A DNA stretch of 33,921 nt, taken from an uncultured Bacilli bacterium. Lineage in GTDB: Bacteria; Bacillota_I; Bacilli_A; RF39; UBA660. Below the pieces are notes generated by a model that was not told the DNA's origin, searched no databases, and saw only the letters and a program-made list of their open reading frames with translations. The stretch is from the NCBI GenBank assembly GCA_944363665.1, contig CALVUS010000003.1:1-33921 (forward strand), in the 5' to 3' direction. Numbering within the stretch: the stretch's first letter is position 1; each line of letters starts with the position of its first letter. Below, piece by piece: positions 16,580 through 26,135 of the stretch. The position numbers were made by a program, and so were the translations under genes.

Positions 16580-17947
16580 TCAGCGAAAATTTTTCCATGG
16601 GTCACAATTTTTTAATCTTCTTATGGCTTTATCAATAGTTATTTCATCAGGTTTAACTTTATCCAGTTCACTCCATTTAATGGGCATCGAAACAGTTGCC
16701 TTTTTTCTTAATCTCAAGGAATATGGAGCAACACTCGTAGCTCCTTTAATATTTCTAACCCAATCAATAAAAATTTTTCCCTTTCTTTTACTTTTTTTCA
16801 TATTACTAGTATACTTGTCTGGCCAAGTTGCTTCCATCAATTTGGCCAAATTACGAGCAATGCTTCGAGCATTTTTCCAAGTAGTTTTACTTCTTAGAGG
16901 AACAACTATATGATATCCTTTCCCTCCACTAGTTTTTAAAAAAGATTCTAAATTATAGCCATCAAGAATTTTCTTTAAATCTTTAACTCCTTCGCGCAGT
17001 TTACTTAAACTTAAATTCTCATCTGGATCGAGATCAAACACCAGCATATCAGCATGATTGACATCATCAACTTTGCTTCCCCAAATGTGAAACTCATAGC
17101 TATTCATCTGTACTTCTTGCATTACCCCATTTATATCTTTTATATAATAATAATCGGTTCTATTATCCCCACTACTTCTTAACTTTTTAACTCCAAGATA
17201 GCCTTCTAAATTTTCAAAATGTTTTTTATAAAAAGGTATACCACCAGCTCCATCTGGAAGTCTTATCGTGCTAATAAGTCTATTTTCTATAAAAGGAAGC
17301 ATTCTTTCAGTCACTTTTTCATAATAATTAAAAATATCTTTTTTAGTAACTTTAGGATTTTTAAATATCACCTTATCCGGATTAGTTAATTCTATTGTTG
17401 CCTTATTTTCTGAAATTTCAGCCATTGTTTTGCCGGTTTTAATGCTCGTATCAAATTCTAAAATATCATCGTATAAATGATATTCATCCTTATCTTTTAT
17501 TAGTAACCAATTATTTCCATTCATTAAGACTAACGTCCATAACCCTTTTAGTCTTTTTCCATTTAACTTAAATTTAATTAGACCATTGTTAAAATTTGGT
17601 TGGGTTCCTCCCACAACTTTCCAAGTTCCATAATCCCAGAGCATCACTGTACCTGCACCATATTCTCCTTTAGGTATTGTTCCTTCAAAATTTCTATAAC
17701 TAAGTGGATGATCCTCCACCATTACCGCAAGCCTTTTATCTTTGGGATTATAAGATGGTCCTTTGGGAACCGCCCAACTTTTTAAAACACCATTCCACTC
17801 CAATCTTAAATCATAATGATCCTTTCGTGCTAAGTGATGCTGTACTACAAATCTAAGTCTTTTATTGCTTTTCTCTTGCTTCCCTCTAGGTTCACTAGTT
17901 TTCGTAAAATTTCTTTTTTTATTATATTCAACTAATTTTTTTAACAT
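16580..17947 (-). CDS. ligD: LigD-type 3'-phosphoesterase plus polymerase/primase protein
   Basis: End-processing enzyme of bacterial non-homologous end joining. Residues about 30-150 form the phosphoesterase domain that trims 3' ends, with its signature HHLARKDHYDLRLEW and the following LKSWAVPKGPS and DHPLSYRNFEGTIP. Residues about 165-450 form the archaeo-eukaryotic primase-type polymerase (LigD Pol), with the metal-binding FDLDPD, the SGGKGYH motif and the late Asp in IFIDWVRN. It fills gaps, often with ribonucleotides. The domain order is PE-Pol, and the ligase domain is a separate gene upstream. At 455 aa it has both modules complete. The ATG at 17947 follows AGTGAT. It is the last gene of the operon, ending at a shared terminator. 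Confidence 0.93.
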   Translation of the reverse strand: MLKKLVEYNKKRNFTKTSEPRGKQEKSNKRLRFVVQHHLARKDHYDLRLEWNGVLKSWAVPKGPSYNPKDKRLAVMVEDHPLSYRNFEGTIPKGEYGAGTVMLWDYGTWKVVGGTQPNFNNGLIKFKLNGKRLKGLWTLVLMNGNNWLLIKDKDEYHLYDDILEFDTSIKTGKTMAEISENKATIELTNPDKVIFKNPKVTKKDIFNYYEKVTERMLPFIENRLISTIRLPDGAGGIPFYKKHFENLEGYLGVKKLRSSGDNRTDYYYIKDINGVMQEVQMNSYEFHIWGSKVDDVNHADMLVFDLDPDENLSLSKLREGVKDLKKILDGYNLESFLKTSGGKGYHIVVPLRSKTTWKNARSIARNLAKLMEATWPDKYTSNMKKSKRKGKIFIDWVRNIKGATSVAPYSLRLRKKATVSMPIKWSELDKVKPDEITIDKAIRRLKNCDPWKNFR

Positions 17948-18000
17948 TTAAATCACTAATTATATTGTTAAACAAAAAAAATTAATTATACAAAAAGCAA

Positions 18001-18888
18001 TTACTTTAATCTTTCTTTAACAACGTCATTTTTTTGTAAATTACCAATAAGCATAGAAGATTTTGGATTATGCATTAAATAGTTATTTTCAACTATATTT
18101 TCTTGATAATTAGCATAACAATATTTACATAAATGTTTGCAAGTATTATAAGCTCCAATATCTACCATTTTTACACATTCACATTTATTACCTTTACGAA
18201 CACTTTGTTTAGGATAATTTTTTCCAGTTAATTTTAAAGCTAATTCTTTAGATAAACAATCTCCTTTAACAAACCCATATTCAACTAAATTTTTATTCTC
18301 AAAACAAGTTTGAACTGTAATGTCATATTTTTTAGCTATCATACTAAAAGAAGTACCAATTTGATAATATATTTCTTCTGTAAATGGTAAAACTTTTAAA
18401 TATTGCATGTTATTTTCGACATTTTTATAGTTGTCAATAAATGATATAATAATTTTATGAACATATCCTTTTAATAACGAGCATAATTGCAAAAATGCTT
18501 TTTGATGATAAATTACTGAATATTTTTTACTAATAAAAATTGGATCGTATCTAACAACAATATTATCACTTCCAATAATAGACGATATTCTTTTTACACC
18601 TTCAATTATCTCTTTTTTACTTGGCACATTTGGTTCAATATCCTTCTTGTATGGTGTTAAAGTAACGTGAATTAGCATTGGGATTTTCAAAGTTTTCAAG
18701 TGAGGAATTATTGGTAAAGGATTTTTTGTGCAAAAGAAAAGTAAATCGACATTTTCAAATTTAATTCGACTGACTAAATTATGATTAAAAGGATTTCGAA
18801 CATCAACAAATCCTTCTTTGTATCTATTCATAAACCATTCCATATAAAATGCTACTATATCAGTTCTTCCACTTACAAACAAAATCAT
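18001..18888 (-). CDS. DUF1848 family protein with radical-SAM-like cysteine cluster
   Basis: A 295-aa protein of a family with no known function. The N-terminus (VSGRTDIVAFYMEWFMNR, then VRNPFNHNLVSRI and FFCTKNP) matches the DUF1848 pattern. The C-terminal part carries CxC followed by CxxxCxxC (KCECVKM ... NTCKHLCKYCYANY, about residues 236-263), the spacing used by radical SAM enzymes for a 4Fe-4S cluster but placed at the C-terminus, as in this family. The start at 18888 follows GTGAT directly; the extension to 18912 has no site. It lies inside the NHEJ operon between the ligase and PE-Pol genes, so a role in processing damaged DNA ends or bases is a reasonable inference but is not shown. 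Confidence 0.85.
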   Translation of the reverse strand: MILFVSGRTDIVAFYMEWFMNRYKEGFVDVRNPFNHNLVSRIKFENVDLLFFCTKNPLPIIPHLKTLKIPMLIHVTLTPYKKDIEPNVPSKKEIIEGVKRISSIIGSDNIVVRYDPIFISKKYSVIYHQKAFLQLCSLLKGYVHKIIISFIDNYKNVENNMQYLKVLPFTEEIYYQIGTSFSMIAKKYDITVQTCFENKNLVEYGFVKGDCLSKELALKLTGKNYPKQSVRKGNKCECVKMVDIGAYNTCKHLCKYCYANYQENIVENNYLMHNPKSSMLIGNLQKNDVVKERLK

Positions 18889-18932
18889 AATATCACATTT
18901 TAATTTAAACAAAAAAAAAGAAAAATTGCAAC

Positions 18933-19793
18933 TTAAAAAAATGAATGTCTTAACATATTTTGTTTAGTTTTTTCTAAATAATTAATTTTTACTTTTATAT
19001 CAGGATCAATAAATATTCCTTTTTCTTGATAATTGCAAAAAGGATTATGTCCCTTTTTTTGACTAATAATTTTTTTCATTAATTCGTTTTGCATGCCCAC
19101 TTTAATTTTACCAACATAATATAATTTATTTTGCTTTTTTTCTCCCAATAATAAACTAAAGCTAATACTATTTTTAACATAACCTCCAATATAGAAAAAA
19201 GCTGTTTGATAATTTTTCAATTTTATCCATACATTACTTCTTTTATTAGGATAATATAAACTGTTTTTTTCTTTAGCTACTATTCCTTCCCATTTTATTT
19301 TTTTGATTGCTTTAAAAAGTTTTTTACCATCCTTATATATTGGTGATTTAAAAAAATAATTTGTATCACGATATTTATCTAATAATTTTTTTCTTACTAT
19401 TAGCTTTTCATCAACTAAACTTTTATTTTGATAGATTATATCAAATGCTATATATACAACTGGATAGTTTAAACTAGTTGTATATATCCTATCTTTATCT
19501 TTTAAACGAAGTCTTTTTTGTAAACCATCAAACGATGGTTTTTTATTAGCAAATAAAACTATTTCGCCATCAAAAATGCAATCTTTATTACCTACAATTT
19601 CTCTCATATCATCTAATTCTGGAAACAAATGGGTTATGTCAATGTTATTACGAGTCCGAATATTTATTTGGCTTTTATTTACATAAATCATAGCTCTTAT
19701 ACCATCAAATTTTATTTCATATAAATATTTAGCATTAATTTGAAAAGGAATTTCTGCTAAAAGCATTGGCTTTATATTTTTAGCATTAAACAT
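18933..19793 (-). CDS. ligD: ATP-dependent DNA ligase, stand-alone LigD ligase domain
   Basis: Seals double-strand breaks in the NHEJ pathway using ATP. The 286 aa comprises the adenylation domain and the OB-fold. Nucleotidyltransferase motifs are visible in order: motif I with the adenylated lysine K28 (YEIKFDGIRA), motif III (CIFDGEIVLF), motif IV (WEGIVAKEK), motif V (VWIKLKN), and an OB domain from about 195 to the end (FYIGGYVKN, YYVGKIKVG). It lacks the DNA-binding domain of LigB/LigC-type enzymes, matching the LigD ligase module. The ATG at 19793 lies within the last codons of ku, an 8-nt overlap that indicates translational coupling. Confidence 0.93.
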   Translation of the reverse strand: MFNAKNIKPMLLAEIPFQINAKYLYEIKFDGIRAMIYVNKSQINIRTRNNIDITHLFPELDDMREIVGNKDCIFDGEIVLFANKKPSFDGLQKRLRLKDKDRIYTTSLNYPVVYIAFDIIYQNKSLVDEKLIVRKKLLDKYRDTNYFFKSPIYKDGKKLFKAIKKIKWEGIVAKEKNSLYYPNKRSNVWIKLKNYQTAFFYIGGYVKNSISFSLLLGEKKQNKLYYVGKIKVGMQNELMKKIISQKKGHNPFCNYQEKGIFIDPDIKVKINYLEKTKQNMLRHSFF

Positions 19794-20526
19794 TTTTCAA
19801 ACTCATTTCTAGAGCTTTCATCAAATCTTTAATATTATTTTTTTGTTTTACTTTAATATTTTTAGACTTAATTCCTTTTTGTTTTTTCTTAATAGCTTCT
19901 TTAATATTTTCTTGATATTCATCAATATATTTTTCTGGTTCAAATTTCATTTTTAAAGAATCAATTAGTTTCAATGCTAAATCTAATTCTTTTTTTGTAT
20001 ATTTTGCTATAGTAACTGAATCAGGAATAATAATTTCTTCATTAAAATAAAGGGTACTCATAATAATATTGTTCTGCATTATTCGAATTGCTACATAATA
20101 AAATTTGGTAGATATAATTGTTTTTGCTATAGCTATTTTTTTGCTTTTTTCTAAAGCTTCTTTGAATAAACTAAAAGCTTTACTTTTATTAGGTACTGTT
20201 AAAACATAACTTTTTTCATAAAAAACTGGATCAATTTCTGAAGCACCCACAAAACCAACTATTTCAATGTTATTTTCATTTTCAATTCGCAAATTTTTAA
20301 GTTCTTCGTTTGTCAGTGTAATATATTTATCTTCATCTATTTTATATCCTTTGATAATATCACTCTGTTTTACTTCTTTTTTACAATGAGGACAATATTT
20401 AACATATTTAATACGTGTCAAGCATTTTTTATGTAATTGATTAAAAGATACATCATTATCCTGTAATATTGGATTAATATTTATTGGTATATTTACTAAT
20501 CCAAATGATAAACTACTTTTCTTCAT
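19786..20526 (-). CDS. ku: Ku protein, double-strand-break end-binding
   Basis: Homodimeric ring that binds DNA ends and recruits LigD. The 246 aa shows the bacterial Ku core: SSLSFGLVNIPI at the start, the LHKKCLTRIKYVKYCPHCKKEV segment (a CxxC pair within the bridge region) and the DIIKGYKIDEDKYITLTNEEL block. A lysine-rich C-terminal extension (about 205-240, with KKKQKGIKSKNIKVKQKN) resembles the DNA-binding tails of longer bacterial Ku proteins. The start at 20526 has AAGGAA upstream; an extension of 20 residues reads back into the preceding gene and lacks the family N-terminus. It overlaps the oxidoreductase by 14 nt and the ligase by 8 nt, so expression is coupled. Confidence 0.93.
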   Translation of the reverse strand: MKKSSLSFGLVNIPININPILQDNDVSFNQLHKKCLTRIKYVKYCPHCKKEVKQSDIIKGYKIDEDKYITLTNEELKNLRIENENNIEIVGFVGASEIDPVFYEKSYVLTVPNKSKAFSLFKEALEKSKKIAIAKTIISTKFYYVAIRIMQNNIIMSTLYFNEEIIIPDSVTIAKYTKKELDLALKLIDSLKMKFEPEKYIDEYQENIKEAIKKKQKGIKSKNIKVKQKNNIKDLMKALEMSLKNV

Positions 20527-21967
20527 TAATATCAGTTCCTTTATAAGTAATGTCATAATTGCTAGGTCCTTCAAGACATTTACCATCTAAATCATATCGT
20601 GATCCGTGACATAAACAATCCCATGTTTTTTCTACTGCATTAAACACTAAACCGCATTTCATATGAGGACATTTATTTAAAACAATATGTTCTTTATTAT
20701 TTTCATCTTTATAAATTGCTACATCTTTATTATGAATTTTAGTATATATTATTTTACTATTATTTACATTGTCTTGATTACTTTTTAGTATTGCTTTTAA
20801 ACTACCACAAGCATCAACAGGAAATCTTGTAATTTTATTCAAATTAAGGTCTCTATGTGGGTTAAATAATTCTATATATTCATTTTCATTTTTTAAAATA
20901 AGATCTTTTAAAATTACTCCAGCAAGAGTTCCATTAGTCATGCCCCATGTATTATAACCACATGCTATAAGTAAGGTATCATCTTTTTGATTAACTTTTC
21001 CAATTAATGGAATATAATCACTTGTAATAATATCTTTATTACTCCAAATATAATTAAAATTATATTTGCTAAGCAGATCATCAAAATTGTATTGAATATT
21101 TTTAATATTATAACTAGGATAAGAATTAAATAAATAAATTAAATAATTATTATTTTGATTTCGATGATACCGATAGGATATTGTTGGTTTATCGATATTA
21201 ATAGCATTAACATTTTGAATTTCTTTTACTTTAATTGCACCGATATAGGAAGTTTCAACATGGCTTTTAAAAGGAAGAAATAAAGGATAAATAAAATATG
21301 GATAATGTGTTGCTATAATAAGATATTTTGATTTAATAACATGTTTATTAACATTACAAATATAAAAATCTTTTTCTTTAGTAAAGTTTTTCATTGGTGA
21401 ATTTTCATAAATATAATCTTGCAATATGTTTTTTAAACCTAATAAATATTTTAATGGATGAAACACATAAGTATTTTGTACTTTTAAAGCTAATTTAAAT
21501 TCTTTTTGTTCTTTTAACAATTCGACATTTACTCCAGCATTTTTTAAAAATTTATATTCATCAAACAAAATATCTTTTTTATTCAAGTCATTTGTAAATA
21601 ATATGGAAGCTGAAGGCAATAAATCACAAACAATATTTTCTTTAGTAATAATATTTTTTAAAATGTTTACAGCATTCATTTGACTTTTTAAATATTTATT
21701 TGCAATACTTAAATTACCAAATTTTCTAATATTTAAATACTCTTTTTCTTGTAAATAAGTGATTTTAGCAGTACTTTTAGAAGTAATGCCTTCACCACAC
21801 TTATTCTTCTCTATTAATATAGCATTTACTTTATTTTTGTGTAATTGATAAAGTGTAGATAATCCTGTTATACCACCCCCAACAATCAGGACATCGCATT
21901 CTAAATCCTTAGTTACTTTTTTTAATAATTTGTTTTTTTCATCTAACCATATACTTTTATTTTTCAT
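20513..21967 (-). CDS. FAD-dependent oxidoreductase with C-terminal Rieske domain
   Basis: Cytoplasmic flavoprotein of the DAO family, 484 aa. The N-terminal FAD-binding Rossmann motif is clear (VLIVGGGITGLSTLYQL), with the following EKNKCGEGITSKSTAK contacting the flavin. A second dinucleotide contact (DDTLLIACGYNTWGMTNGTLAG) lies near residue 340. The last 75 residues form a Rieske [2Fe-2S] domain with the ligands CPH and CLCHGSRYDLDG. The architecture suggests electron transfer between FAD and the cluster; no substrate is known. The start at 21967 was chosen because GTGATG precedes it. It is first in the NHEJ operon and overlaps ku by 14 nt, so it may feed electrons to an Fe-S protein such as the DUF1848 product (inference). 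Confidence 0.87.
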   Translation of the reverse strand: MKNKSIWLDEKNKLLKKVTKDLECDVLIVGGGITGLSTLYQLHKNKVNAILIEKNKCGEGITSKSTAKITYLQEKEYLNIRKFGNLSIANKYLKSQMNAVNILKNIITKENIVCDLLPSASILFTNDLNKKDILFDEYKFLKNAGVNVELLKEQKEFKLALKVQNTYVFHPLKYLLGLKNILQDYIYENSPMKNFTKEKDFYICNVNKHVIKSKYLIIATHYPYFIYPLFLPFKSHVETSYIGAIKVKEIQNVNAINIDKPTISYRYHRNQNNNYLIYLFNSYPSYNIKNIQYNFDDLLSKYNFNYIWSNKDIITSDYIPLIGKVNQKDDTLLIACGYNTWGMTNGTLAGVILKDLILKNENEYIELFNPHRDLNLNKITRFPVDACGSLKAILKSNQDNVNNSKIIYTKIHNKDVAIYKDENNKEHIVLNKCPHMKCGLVFNAVEKTWDCLCHGSRYDLDGKCLEGPSNYDITYKGTDINEEK

Positions 21968-22643: not shown

Positions 22644-22659
22644 ATAAATGGTGATAAAT

Positions 22660-23871
22660 ATGTTTTTAGAAGAAAAACTAAAAATTTTAGCTGATAGTGC
22701 AAAATATGATGCATCTTGCTCTTCTAGTGGTAGCAACAGAAGAAATAATAATGGTTTAGGAAATGCTGCAGTAAATGGAATATGTCATTCTTTTGCAGCT
22801 GATGGCAGATGTATTTCCTTATTAAAAATATTAATGACAAATAATTGTATATTTGATTGTAAATATTGTATAAATCGCCGGAGCAATAATATCAAAAGAG
22901 CTATGTTTACCACAGAAGAAATTTGTGAAATTACTATCAATTTTTATAAAAGGAATTATATTGAAGGATTATTTTTAAGTTCTGGTATTATTAAAAGTCC
23001 TGATTATACTATGGAACTTATCATTAAAACAATATATTTACTTAGAAATAAATATCATTTTAATGGTTATATTCATGCAAAAGCCATACCTGGAGCTAAT
23101 GAGATACTGATAAAGAAATTAGGTAAATTGGTTGATCGATTAAGTACTAATATTGAGCTTCCAACAGAAGCTGGATTAAGATTACTTGCTCCCAATAAGA
23201 AAAGCCAGGATATAAATAAAATAATGCATACAATAAAAAATAATACAAATAAATCTTTTGCTCCAGCAGGTCAAAGTACTCAAATGATTATAGGGGCTAC
23301 AAAAGAAAGCGATAAAGATATTATGTCTAAAAGCTCAGATATGTATAAAAGATTTTATCTAAAAAGAGTTTTTTATTCAGCTTATGTCCCCGTAAATAAA
23401 GATAAAGATTTACCAATCATTACTACCCCACCATTAATAAGAGAAAATCGTCTTTATCAAGCAGATTGGTTACTTCGATTCTATAAATTTACTGTTAATG
23501 ACTTATTTGATAAAGAAAACAATTTTAATATTTTGTTAGATCCTAAAACTGATTGGGCTTTAAAACATTTAGAACAGTTTCCCAAAGAAATAAATAAAGC
23601 AACTTTTGATGAATTAATTAGAATACCAGGAATTGGCCTTACTTCGGCAAAAAAAATTATCACTTCTAGGAAATATTTTAATATTGAATTTCCAGATTTA
23701 AAGAAAATGGGAATTAGTTTAAAAAAATCCAAGTACTTTATAACTTGTAATAATAAATATTATACAAACTCAGAAATACCAAATAAAAGTATCATTTATC
23801 AAAATCTTATTACACAAGAAAATTCATTTAAAAAAGAATTTGTTCAATTGAGTTTATTTGAAAATGACTAA
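22660..23871 (+). CDS. Putative DNA modification/repair radical SAM protein
   Basis: Radical SAM enzyme of the family annotated as putative DNA modification/repair (TIGR03916), 403 aa; the reaction is unknown. The cluster motif is CxxxCxxC at about residues 65-72 (NCIFDCKYCINRR). Before it lies the family's N-terminal block (LADSAKYDASCSSSGSNRR, then GICHSFAADGRCISLLK), which carries further cysteines and precedes the radical SAM core. The core continues with LFLSSGI, the GYIHAKAIPGA strand and SFAPAGQSTQMIIGA. Near the C-terminus is a helix-hairpin-helix element (IRIPGIGLTSAKKIITSR, about 320-340), supporting DNA binding. The start at 22660 follows GGTGAT. It overlaps its DUF4130 partner by 8 nt, the conserved pairing for this family. 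Confidence 0.92.
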   Translation: MFLEEKLKILADSAKYDASCSSSGSNRRNNNGLGNAAVNGICHSFAADGRCISLLKILMTNNCIFDCKYCINRRSNNIKRAMFTTEEICEITINFYKRNYIEGLFLSSGIIKSPDYTMELIIKTIYLLRNKYHFNGYIHAKAIPGANEILIKKLGKLVDRLSTNIELPTEAGLRLLAPNKKSQDINKIMHTIKNNTNKSFAPAGQSTQMIIGATKESDKDIMSKSSDMYKRFYLKRVFYSAYVPVNKDKDLPIITTPPLIRENRLYQADWLLRFYKFTVNDLFDKENNFNILLDPKTDWALKHLEQFPKEINKATFDELIRIPGIGLTSAKKIITSRKYFNIEFPDLKKMGISLKKSKYFITCNNKYYTNSEIPNKSIIYQNLITQENSFKKEFVQLSLFEND

Positions 23872-24628
23872 TTATGTAATTATATATGATGGTACTTTTG
23901 TTAATTTATTATCAACTATAAAATACTTAATAGAAGAAAAAATTAGGCCGGCAAAAATAGTTGTCGAAGGAAAATATAATGTGAGTTTGTTTGAAGAGAT
24001 TTTAAAGCCCAACATTTTTAATGATCCAAATTATATTGCAAAATTGGAAAATTTAAGTTCCAAAAAAGTAATTAAAATTATAACTTTTGTTTTTTTAAGT
24101 AATGATAAAAATAAAGAGTTAATTTTATATTATTTTATTTTAAATACTTTAAAATATAAAAAAAATATAATTTATTATCGTAATTTATTATGTGTTAACC
24201 AAGCACTAAAAATAAGCAAGCATGTAGCAAATGAAAATCATAAATTTAAGGGGTTTACGAGATTTCAAATGGTAAATAATAAGTTTTTATTTGCCAAAAT
24301 AAAACCAGATAATTATATTTTAGAATTATTATCACAACATTTTAGCAAAAGATTGAAAAATGAATTGTGGATAATTAAGGACGAAAAACACAATATATTA
24401 AGCATATACGATAAAAAAAATTTTTACATAGTAAATGCTAAAGATCTACAATTATTAGAATTAAAAAATATTGAAAAAAATGAAAAATGGGAAAAATTAT
24501 GGAAAACATTTTTTAACAGTATTGCTATAAAAGAAAGAGAAAACAGAAGATGTCAGATGAGCTTTATGCCTAAAAAATATTGGAGTAATATTATCGAAAT
24601 GGAGGGAAATGATGAAAAAAATAATTAA
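23864..24628 (+). CDS. DUF4130 protein, partner of the radical SAM protein
   Basis: A 254-aa protein of the 'probable DNA metabolism protein' family (TIGR03915) that is normally encoded beside or fused with the radical SAM protein or a uracil-DNA glycosylase domain. The opening NYVIIYDGTFVNLLSTI matches the family's YDGSFEGLL start. The DUF4130 hallmark is at the C-terminus (about 205-245): WEKLWKTFFNSIAIKERENR, then QMSFMPKKYWSNIIE. The start at ATG 23864 overlaps the radical SAM gene; a TTG at 23858 is less likely. No glycosylase domain is attached here. Its last codons overlap the chaperonin-like gene by 17 nt. The pair is presumed to act on DNA bases; the chemistry is unproven. Confidence 0.88.
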   Translation: MTNYVIIYDGTFVNLLSTIKYLIEEKIRPAKIVVEGKYNVSLFEEILKPNIFNDPNYIAKLENLSSKKVIKIITFVFLSNDKNKELILYYFILNTLKYKKNIIYYRNLLCVNQALKISKHVANENHKFKGFTRFQMVNNKFLFAKIKPDNYILELLSQHFSKRLKNELWIIKDEKHNILSIYDKKNFYIVNAKDLQLLELKNIEKNEKWEKLWKTFFNSIAIKERENRRCQMSFMPKKYWSNIIEMEGNDEKNN

Positions 24629-26135
24629 AGGAAGATTATTGTTAGAATATATTGATAAAGCAATAACTCTATTAAGTGATGCTGTCAAAATAACTTTGGG
24701 TCCAAATGGTAATAATGTCATCATAAACGATTCAAAATTTAATCCATATATTACTAATGATGGTGTTACTATTGCTAGTGCAATTAATGATGATAATGAA
24801 ATAATGGACACTATTTTAACAATCATAAAAGAAGCAGCTTTAAAGACAAATAGTGATGTTGGTGATGGAACTACAACAACTATTGTTTTATTAGAAAGCA
24901 TATATAAAAATAGTATTTCTCTAATAAAAAATTCAAATGAAATGCTAAATTACAAAAAAGAATTACAAGAAAGTTTGAAGAAAATCATAAATAAATTGAA
25001 TAATTACTCTAAAATTCCTAGTAAAATAGATTTAGAAAAAATTGCTTGTATATCTGCTAATGACGAGAAAATTGGAAAATTAATTGCTAAATTCTATCTT
25101 GATTTAAATAAAAGCAATAACATTAAAATAGAAGAAAATCTAATAGATTCTCGAGATTATGTTGTGAAACTCCAAGGATACTTTTTTGAAAATTCTCTTG
25201 CTTCACCATATTTTTCTAACGAAAAGCATCAAACGATTAAGTCTCCAACACTAATTTTGTACAACAAAGAAATAAATTACATAGAAGATATAGAACAAAT
25301 ATTATTCGATTATTCTCAAATGCAAAAAAATTTAATAATAATTGCTGATTCTTTTGCAAATGAAGTAATAAATGAAGTATTAGCTATAAATTACGAGGCA
25401 AAAGGAAACATAATTTTAATAAATAACCCCGAATATGGATCACGAAAATTGGAGTTACTAGATGATTTAAAAATTATTTCAAATGCTAAAAACATTAATA
25501 ATTATTGGGCTGGAAATATTAAAGAATTTAAAGCAGATGAAAAAGAAATATATTTAATTTATGATAAAAACAATAAAATAAAAGATTATTTAAATATCTT
25601 ACAAAAGAAATTAAAAGAAGAAAATGATCAATATAATCAAATTTATTTAAAAGATCGAATTAGCAAACTAGAAAATATTTATGGAATTATTTATGTAGGT
25701 GGTCAAACCTCATTAGAAAGAAGAGAAAAAAAGATGCGATTTACAGATGCATTGTGTGCTCTTGAAGCTAGTAGTACAGGAATTTGTCCCGGTGGTGGTT
25801 TAGTTCTTTACCAAATAAGTGAAGAAATAAAAAAAGAAACTTTGGCAGATTTAGTTTTATCTAAATCATTAAAAGATCCTCTTATACAAATTTTAAAAAA
25901 TAGCAATGTAAATTATCGAAAAATAATCCAGAAAATAAAGATTAAAAATTATCAAAAAATATATAATGCTAAAAATAAAACATTTGAGTCAATTAGTAAT
26001 ACAAATGTTTTAGATAATAAATCAGTAATAATGTATGCACTTAGCAATGCTGTATCTATTGCTAGCTTACTATTAACAACGTCTCATTTAGTTATTAATG
26101 ATTCAAGTACCGAAACTAACTTAGATAATTTTTAA
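24612..26135 (+). CDS. Divergent GroEL/HSP60-like chaperonin paralogue
   Basis: A 507-aa group I chaperonin relative. ATP-site segments can be followed: [12 protein letters not shown] (GroEL TLGPKGRN), [23 protein letters not shown], the Asp in RFTDALCAL, the glycine turn ICPGGGLVL, and NVLDNKS near the end, so ATPase residues are mostly retained. Lys in the TLGPKG and TKDG motifs is replaced by Asn in both. The apical region (about 175-360) is recognisable ([41 protein letters not shown]) but diverged. It ends without a GGM tail. No groES is adjacent and no CIRCE is upstream. It is the third gene of the radical SAM operon, overlapping DUF4130 by 17 nt; ATG 24612 was preferred over 24609 for spacing from GGAGGG. 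Confidence 0.88.

Follow-up and report, generated by a model that had tools for sequence, protein, structure and literature searches.

Bacterial non-homologous end joining (NHEJ) systems whose LigD domains are found on separate proteins form a recognised class, termed 'nonconventional NHEJ' (PMC7719229), and ThiC is described as a radical S-adenosylmethionine (SAM) enzyme with a non-canonical architecture (PMC4389238). Both themes meet in the stretch of DNA analysed here (the window), the first 33,921 nucleotides of contig CALVUS010000003.1 from an uncultured Bacilli bacterium, where Ku and the two halves of a split LigD are encoded together with a protein of the family DUF1848 (domain of unknown function 1848). 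The locus is probably a lineage-specific DNA-repair gene cluster composed of an ordinary split-LigD NHEJ system and a free-standing accessory protein, DUF1848, which would be a circularly permuted radical-SAM enzyme. The host genome is a 1.02-Mb draft in 102 contigs and its close relatives are metagenome-assembled genomes of uncultured gut Bacilli, probably of the RF39 group. The genes of the cluster and the motif central to the analysis are listed below; residues of DUF1848 are counted from the Ile that follows the start Met, and their conservation refers to an alignment of 94 diverse homologues.

20513..21967, minus strand: flavin adenine dinucleotide (FAD)-dependent oxidoreductase with a C-terminal Rieske [2Fe-2S] domain (Pfam PF01266 (DAO) and PF00355 (Rieske))
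19786..20526, minus strand: Ku (TIGR02772, 241.5 bits, above cut-off)
18933..19793, minus strand: stand-alone ATP-dependent NHEJ-type ligase, the Lig half of the split LigD, 286 amino acids (PF01068; best NCBIfam model TIGR02779)
18001..18888, minus strand: DUF1848 protein, 295 amino acids from the ATG at 18888 (PF08902, E 3e-88)
18118..18141, minus strand: CX3CX2C motif (C249-KHL-C253-KY-C256) at the C-terminal end of DUF1848, invariant in 94/94 homologues
16580..17947, minus strand: PE-Pol half of the split LigD (3'-phosphoesterase and primase-polymerase), 455 amino acids (TIGR02777, 214.9 bits, and TIGR02778, 286.1 bits, both above cut-off)

An earlier note on this DNA had described the DUF1848 protein as radical-SAM-like, a description that is strengthened by a structural model, a fold comparison and a profile rotation test, and refined by them to a circular permutation. 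The AlphaFold 2 (AF2) model is confident (pLDDT 95.4, pTM 0.92) and has a radical-SAM-type (partial) TIM-barrel fold. In its comparison by VIA-align, radical-SAM proteins fill the whole of the 24 best rows (Z 8.0 to 10.0); they include MqnE, spore photoproduct lyase (SPL), biotin synthase (BioB), NifB, HydG, pyruvate formate-lyase activase and RlmN. Residue 1 of the model pairs downstream of the cluster loop of the targets, SPL 135-341 corresponding to model residues 1-195. Sequence profiles lead independently to the same result: hhalign of DUF1848 against a profile of about 30 COG1533-type proteins yielded two pieces in swapped order, the cluster loop (242-266) aligning to 15-39 and residues 29-192 to 73-266. 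Rotation of the DUF1848 profile gave one continuous match of 218 columns with a score of 87 (E 8e-12), up from 47. This gain holds for every tested start between 196 and 246, and the top score among 30 column shuffles was 30.8. The linear order of DUF1848 is not the canonical one: the cluster loop comes last, and an order with the loop first is obtained only after circular rotation. From sequence and model, DUF1848 looks like a circularly permuted radical-SAM-type protein of the COG1533/SPL kin, a permuted relative that would work like a radical-SAM enzyme rather than a canonical member.

Two results count against a permuted radical-SAM barrel. The E-values given by Foldseek are weak (5e-3 for SPL, at a probability of 1.00) and the lowest ones belong to other TIM barrels. 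The gain upon rotation was absent with small templates (two SPL sequences, TIGR03916 and MiaB), a lack that we attribute to their thin profiles, and a DusB control gave nothing; because these templates gave no gain, the sequence side of the case rests on the COG1533 profile. Scans that expect the usual motif order miss such proteins or barely detect them: PF04055 matched 22 of 56 homologues at E<=10 (best 1.9e-4) and did not match the window protein. A sequence search for relatives of solved structure returned none (best E 0.73, to an unrelated protein). Searches of a collection of papers by title, abstract or DUF name found none on a circularly permuted radical-SAM enzyme and none on DUF1848.

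The CxxxCxxC motif reported in the earlier note is real (window 18141-18118), and the aromatic residue that precedes its third cysteine (C249-x3-C253-K-Y255-C256) is also invariant in the 94 homologues. Four further cysteines, C194, C210, C235 and C237, bring the number of invariant ones to seven and suggest a second, auxiliary Fe-S cluster. In the architecture that we propose, residues 1-195 would provide those barrel strands that canonical enzymes have after their cluster loop. From there the chain would cross the four-cysteine segment, the putative second cluster, and end with the loop that opens canonical enzymes (C249, C253, C256), which would close the barrel. The C-terminal cysteines are predicted to hold a [4Fe-4S] cluster that binds SAM and cleaves it reductively, and the resulting 5'-deoxyadenosyl radical would attack a substrate inside the barrel. 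If this is true, a permuted radical-SAM barrel extends the recognition rules for a very large superfamily, and a domain of unknown function becomes a testable enzyme.

The likeliest single guess for the substrate is a DNA or nucleotide lesion, because of the COG1533/SPL kinship and of a weak clustering of DUF1848 genes with those of TAG (3-methyladenine glycosylase I) and OGT. The next two readings concern only the substrate. It is quite conceivable that DUF1848 acts on a peptide, a cofactor or RNA, unrelated to DNA repair, and that its place in the cluster is due to chance. This agrees with fold matches that are equally good for MqnE, HydG, NifB and BioB, and with the four extra invariant cysteines, which are not known from SPL. 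It also agrees with the lack of a conserved partner anywhere: a steady gene partner of DUF1848 was rejected, the neighbours differing in nearly every genome of the order, and among 147 neighbours of 40 DUF1848 loci across the phylum the top family was found 7 times and no repair family was among the 25 most frequent. However, the best sequence match after rotation is the COG1533 type, with the other families compared through small templates only.

A more specific form of the explanation that we prefer, held more tentatively, is that DUF1848 is a general DNA-repair enzyme, acting on a lesion of a base or of the backbone by reversal or removal, that was recruited now and then to repair islands (TAG/OGT, NHEJ, TIGR03916) through a shared stress regime. 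Besides the kinship with the COG1533/SPL type, it is favoured by six genomes, each from a different genus (G030, G065, G074, G147, G152 and G167), in which TAG or OGT lies no more than 5 kb away from DUF1848. TAG lies within this distance in 5 of the 36 genomes of the order that have both genes, where about 0.3 would be expected from uniform placement (p 1.6e-5), and OGT-type genes do so in G030, G147, G152 and G167. TAG and OGT-type genes are often adjacent across the order, as a small alkylation-repair pair, so that the two signals are not independent. TAG was not found within 5 kb of Ku in any of the 17 genomes that have both. The test of the TAG association was post hoc, and the closeness may reflect islands where accessory genes cluster anyway; nor does a repair family recur among the neighbours in the wider phylum. 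The weak alkylation-repair clustering is compatible with a possible DNA-repair role.

DUF1848 is spread over Bacilli, Bacteroidota, cyanobacteria, archaea and phage records, one of them of 735 kb. Very large phage records with homologues include LR756501/LR756503 (319181-319948) and an IMG/VR contig of 673 kb (L368). The gene is carried by plasmids of Roseburia, Parabacteroides, Planktothrix and Methanosphaera. An AlkB gene is found two genes away from it on the Planktothrix plasmid, again in line with general repair. On the Roseburia plasmid (L361) DUF1848 comes immediately after genes that encode a Sir2-type deacetylase and a protein-ADP-ribose hydrolase. That this distribution describes a widespread permuted radical-SAM family with two Fe-S clusters, reversing a DNA lesion and repeatedly drawn into repair islands, the NHEJ cluster included, across bacteria, archaea and phage records, appears rather unlikely as a whole.

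The end-joining genes beside DUF1848 would constitute an ordinary split-LigD NHEJ system and not a new end-joining machine. Ku and the three LigD activities are present in the window; the ligase scores 193 bits with TIGR02779, under its cut-off of 227.75, and the models for the others exceed theirs. The Lig domain is not fused to PE and Pol, either here or in the relatives examined. In the order, the ligase gene adjoins Ku in 30/30 of the Ku loci first examined, and wherever PE-Pol was seen it was encoded as a protein of its own. Among 30 genomes of the genus, PE-Pol is restricted to those with Ku (24/25 with Ku, 0/5 without). The split of LigD had been taken for a departure from the usual fused protein; as an unusual trait it is ruled out, separate Lig and PE-Pol being the norm among these relatives.

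All five genes of the cluster were found by family profile matches in the order that had been proposed for the minus strand (FAD/Rieske, Ku, ligase, DUF1848, PE-Pol), and the overlaps of 14 nucleotides between FAD/Rieske and Ku and of 8 nucleotides between Ku and the ligase are exact. DUF1848 likely starts at ATG 18888 and not at the upstream TTG 18912, because its homologues are about 295 amino acids long and begin with MIL.VSGRTD. With this start the gaps are 44 nucleotides from ligase to DUF1848 and 53 nucleotides from DUF1848 to PE-Pol. The five genes may form an operon and their co-transcription is plausible, but promoter- and terminator-like matches at the cluster were no more numerous than in shuffles, and PE-Pol differs in composition, with a GC content of 31.8% versus 22-25% for the other four genes. 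The arrangement is more than chance since it recurs in close relatives. Two further repair candidates are encoded divergently on the other side of the FAD/Rieske gene.

22648..23871, plus strand: TIGR03916 putative DNA modification/repair radical-SAM protein (rSAM_link_UDG), divergent neighbour (608.9 bits; syntenic in the subclade described below)
23858..24628, plus strand: TIGR03915/DUF4130 putative DNA repair protein (203 bits)

These genes (22648-24628) form a pair beside the NHEJ genes, TIGR03916 being the second radical-SAM repair candidate of the island. They are followed at 24609-26135 by a gene for a chaperonin-like protein, apparently a divergent GroEL paralogue, that is also syntenic in the subclade; its highest score with a GroEL model is 294 bits, where the cut-offs are 352-582.

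The order ku-lig-DUF1848-PE/Pol is found in 10/30 genomes of the genus, all from one subclade and with syntenic flanks. Ku and ligase occupy the same site in 12 genomes of the genus; in 10 of them DUF1848 separates the ligase gene from PE-Pol, and 8 have FAD/Rieske. The site is bordered by the chaperonin-like, TIGR03915 and TIGR03916 genes on one side and by PE-Pol, Hsp20 and ATP-binding cassette (ABC) genes on the other; the order had to be pieced together across contig ends for G572 and G573 and, in part, for G170 and G574, and G568 is incomplete there. One genome (G569) keeps Ku, ligase and PE-Pol but lacks DUF1848, whose slot is taken by ABC transport genes together with a gene of the RhuM type. 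In some relatives PHP-domain or HNH genes lie between DUF1848 and PE-Pol. The PHP-domain genes are of two types and occur in four relatives (L062:9561-10463, L272:8203-9138, L273:2443-3309 and L277:1319-2245); PHP proteins are nucleases or phosphatases in some cases.

The 12 Ku proteins of the site form one clade (100/100) beside the Ku of another genus (g3), apart from the other Ku of their own genus (g1), a grouping that suggests that Ku-ligase moved horizontally between members of the order. The DUF1848 proteins of the cluster likewise form one clade (100/99), whose nearest members come from two Ku-free genomes (G111 and G046). Since Ku and DUF1848 are each one clade within a syntenic region, the arrangement points to a single origin. 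It is most simply explained by one assembly event, apparently a local rearrangement, that was then inherited vertically; DUF1848 would have reached its place between the ligase and PE-Pol genes only once, in the common ancestor of the subclade. Persistence of the cluster is no evidence of joint function because the flanking genes are equally syntenic. What looks like a conserved operon across relatives can go back to one historical event.

DUF1848 had been considered as 'locked in an NHEJ operon'. In a sample of 193 genomes of the order, 96 have DUF1848 and 46 have Ku above the cut-offs, with no association between the two: DUF1848 is present in 23/46 genomes with Ku versus 73/147 without (p = 1). 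Within the order it adjoins Ku only in genus g1, and there only in the subclade. Across the best 80 GTDB loci and 40 phylum-wide loci no DUF1848 gene adjoins ku outside the subclade; the one locus of the 80 with ku within 8 kb is itself a member of it. Ku was near none of the four DUF1848 loci found on viral contigs, and Ku and DUF1848 shared a contig in 0/13 further genomes of the phylum, outside the genus, that carry both, contig breaks limiting this view of adjacency. No neighbourhood of ku/ligD with DUF1848 recurring in independent lineages was found.

Other counts point the opposite way. In a genome of another genus (G086) Ku and a DUF1848 gene with a frameshift are about 4 kb apart. DUF1848 is present in 15/21 genomes with Ku versus 51/371 others in a phylum sample of 392 genomes (p 1e-8), and all 17/17 DUF1848 genomes of the genus have Ku (p 0.009), neither test being corrected for relatedness or genome size. 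The phylum-wide co-occurrence may therefore be an effect of lineage and genome size. An accessory enzyme dedicated to NHEJ, expressed together with Ku, ligase and PE-Pol and repairing or modifying DNA ends or bases before joining, as the earlier note had proposed, would fit this lineage-confounded co-occurrence, the common strand with short gaps and a position between ligase and PE-Pol kept in 10 species even though ligase identity falls to 57%, but it is very unlikely and is rejected on distribution, since no DUF1848 gene adjoins ku elsewhere in the 80 + 40 loci, the flanking genes are just as syntenic, G569 and other g1 genomes have NHEJ without DUF1848, and DUF1848 is present in 73 genomes of the order that lack Ku.

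The free-standing, permuted radical-SAM protein that we favour can be set beside three known systems. The COG1533-type/SPL enzymes share with DUF1848 the CX3CX2C cluster loop, the barrel strands with T-x-T-x-Y and E-P motifs and the continuous match after rotation, and SPL structures are among its best fold matches. In these enzymes the cluster loop is N-terminal whereas in DUF1848 it is C-terminal; DUF1848 differs also by its four further invariant cysteines, and the window protein has no NCBIfam match at E 1e-3 that would place it in an SPL family. ThiC is set apart by its description: DUF1848 instead keeps the canonical CX3CX2C motif, and it is the barrel itself that appears permuted. The NHEJ genes of the cluster resemble the nonconventional systems (PMC7719229) in that Ku and the ligase, polymerase and phosphoesterase activities come from different genes, with no essential difference, the division into Lig and PE-Pol being the usual one among the relatives examined.

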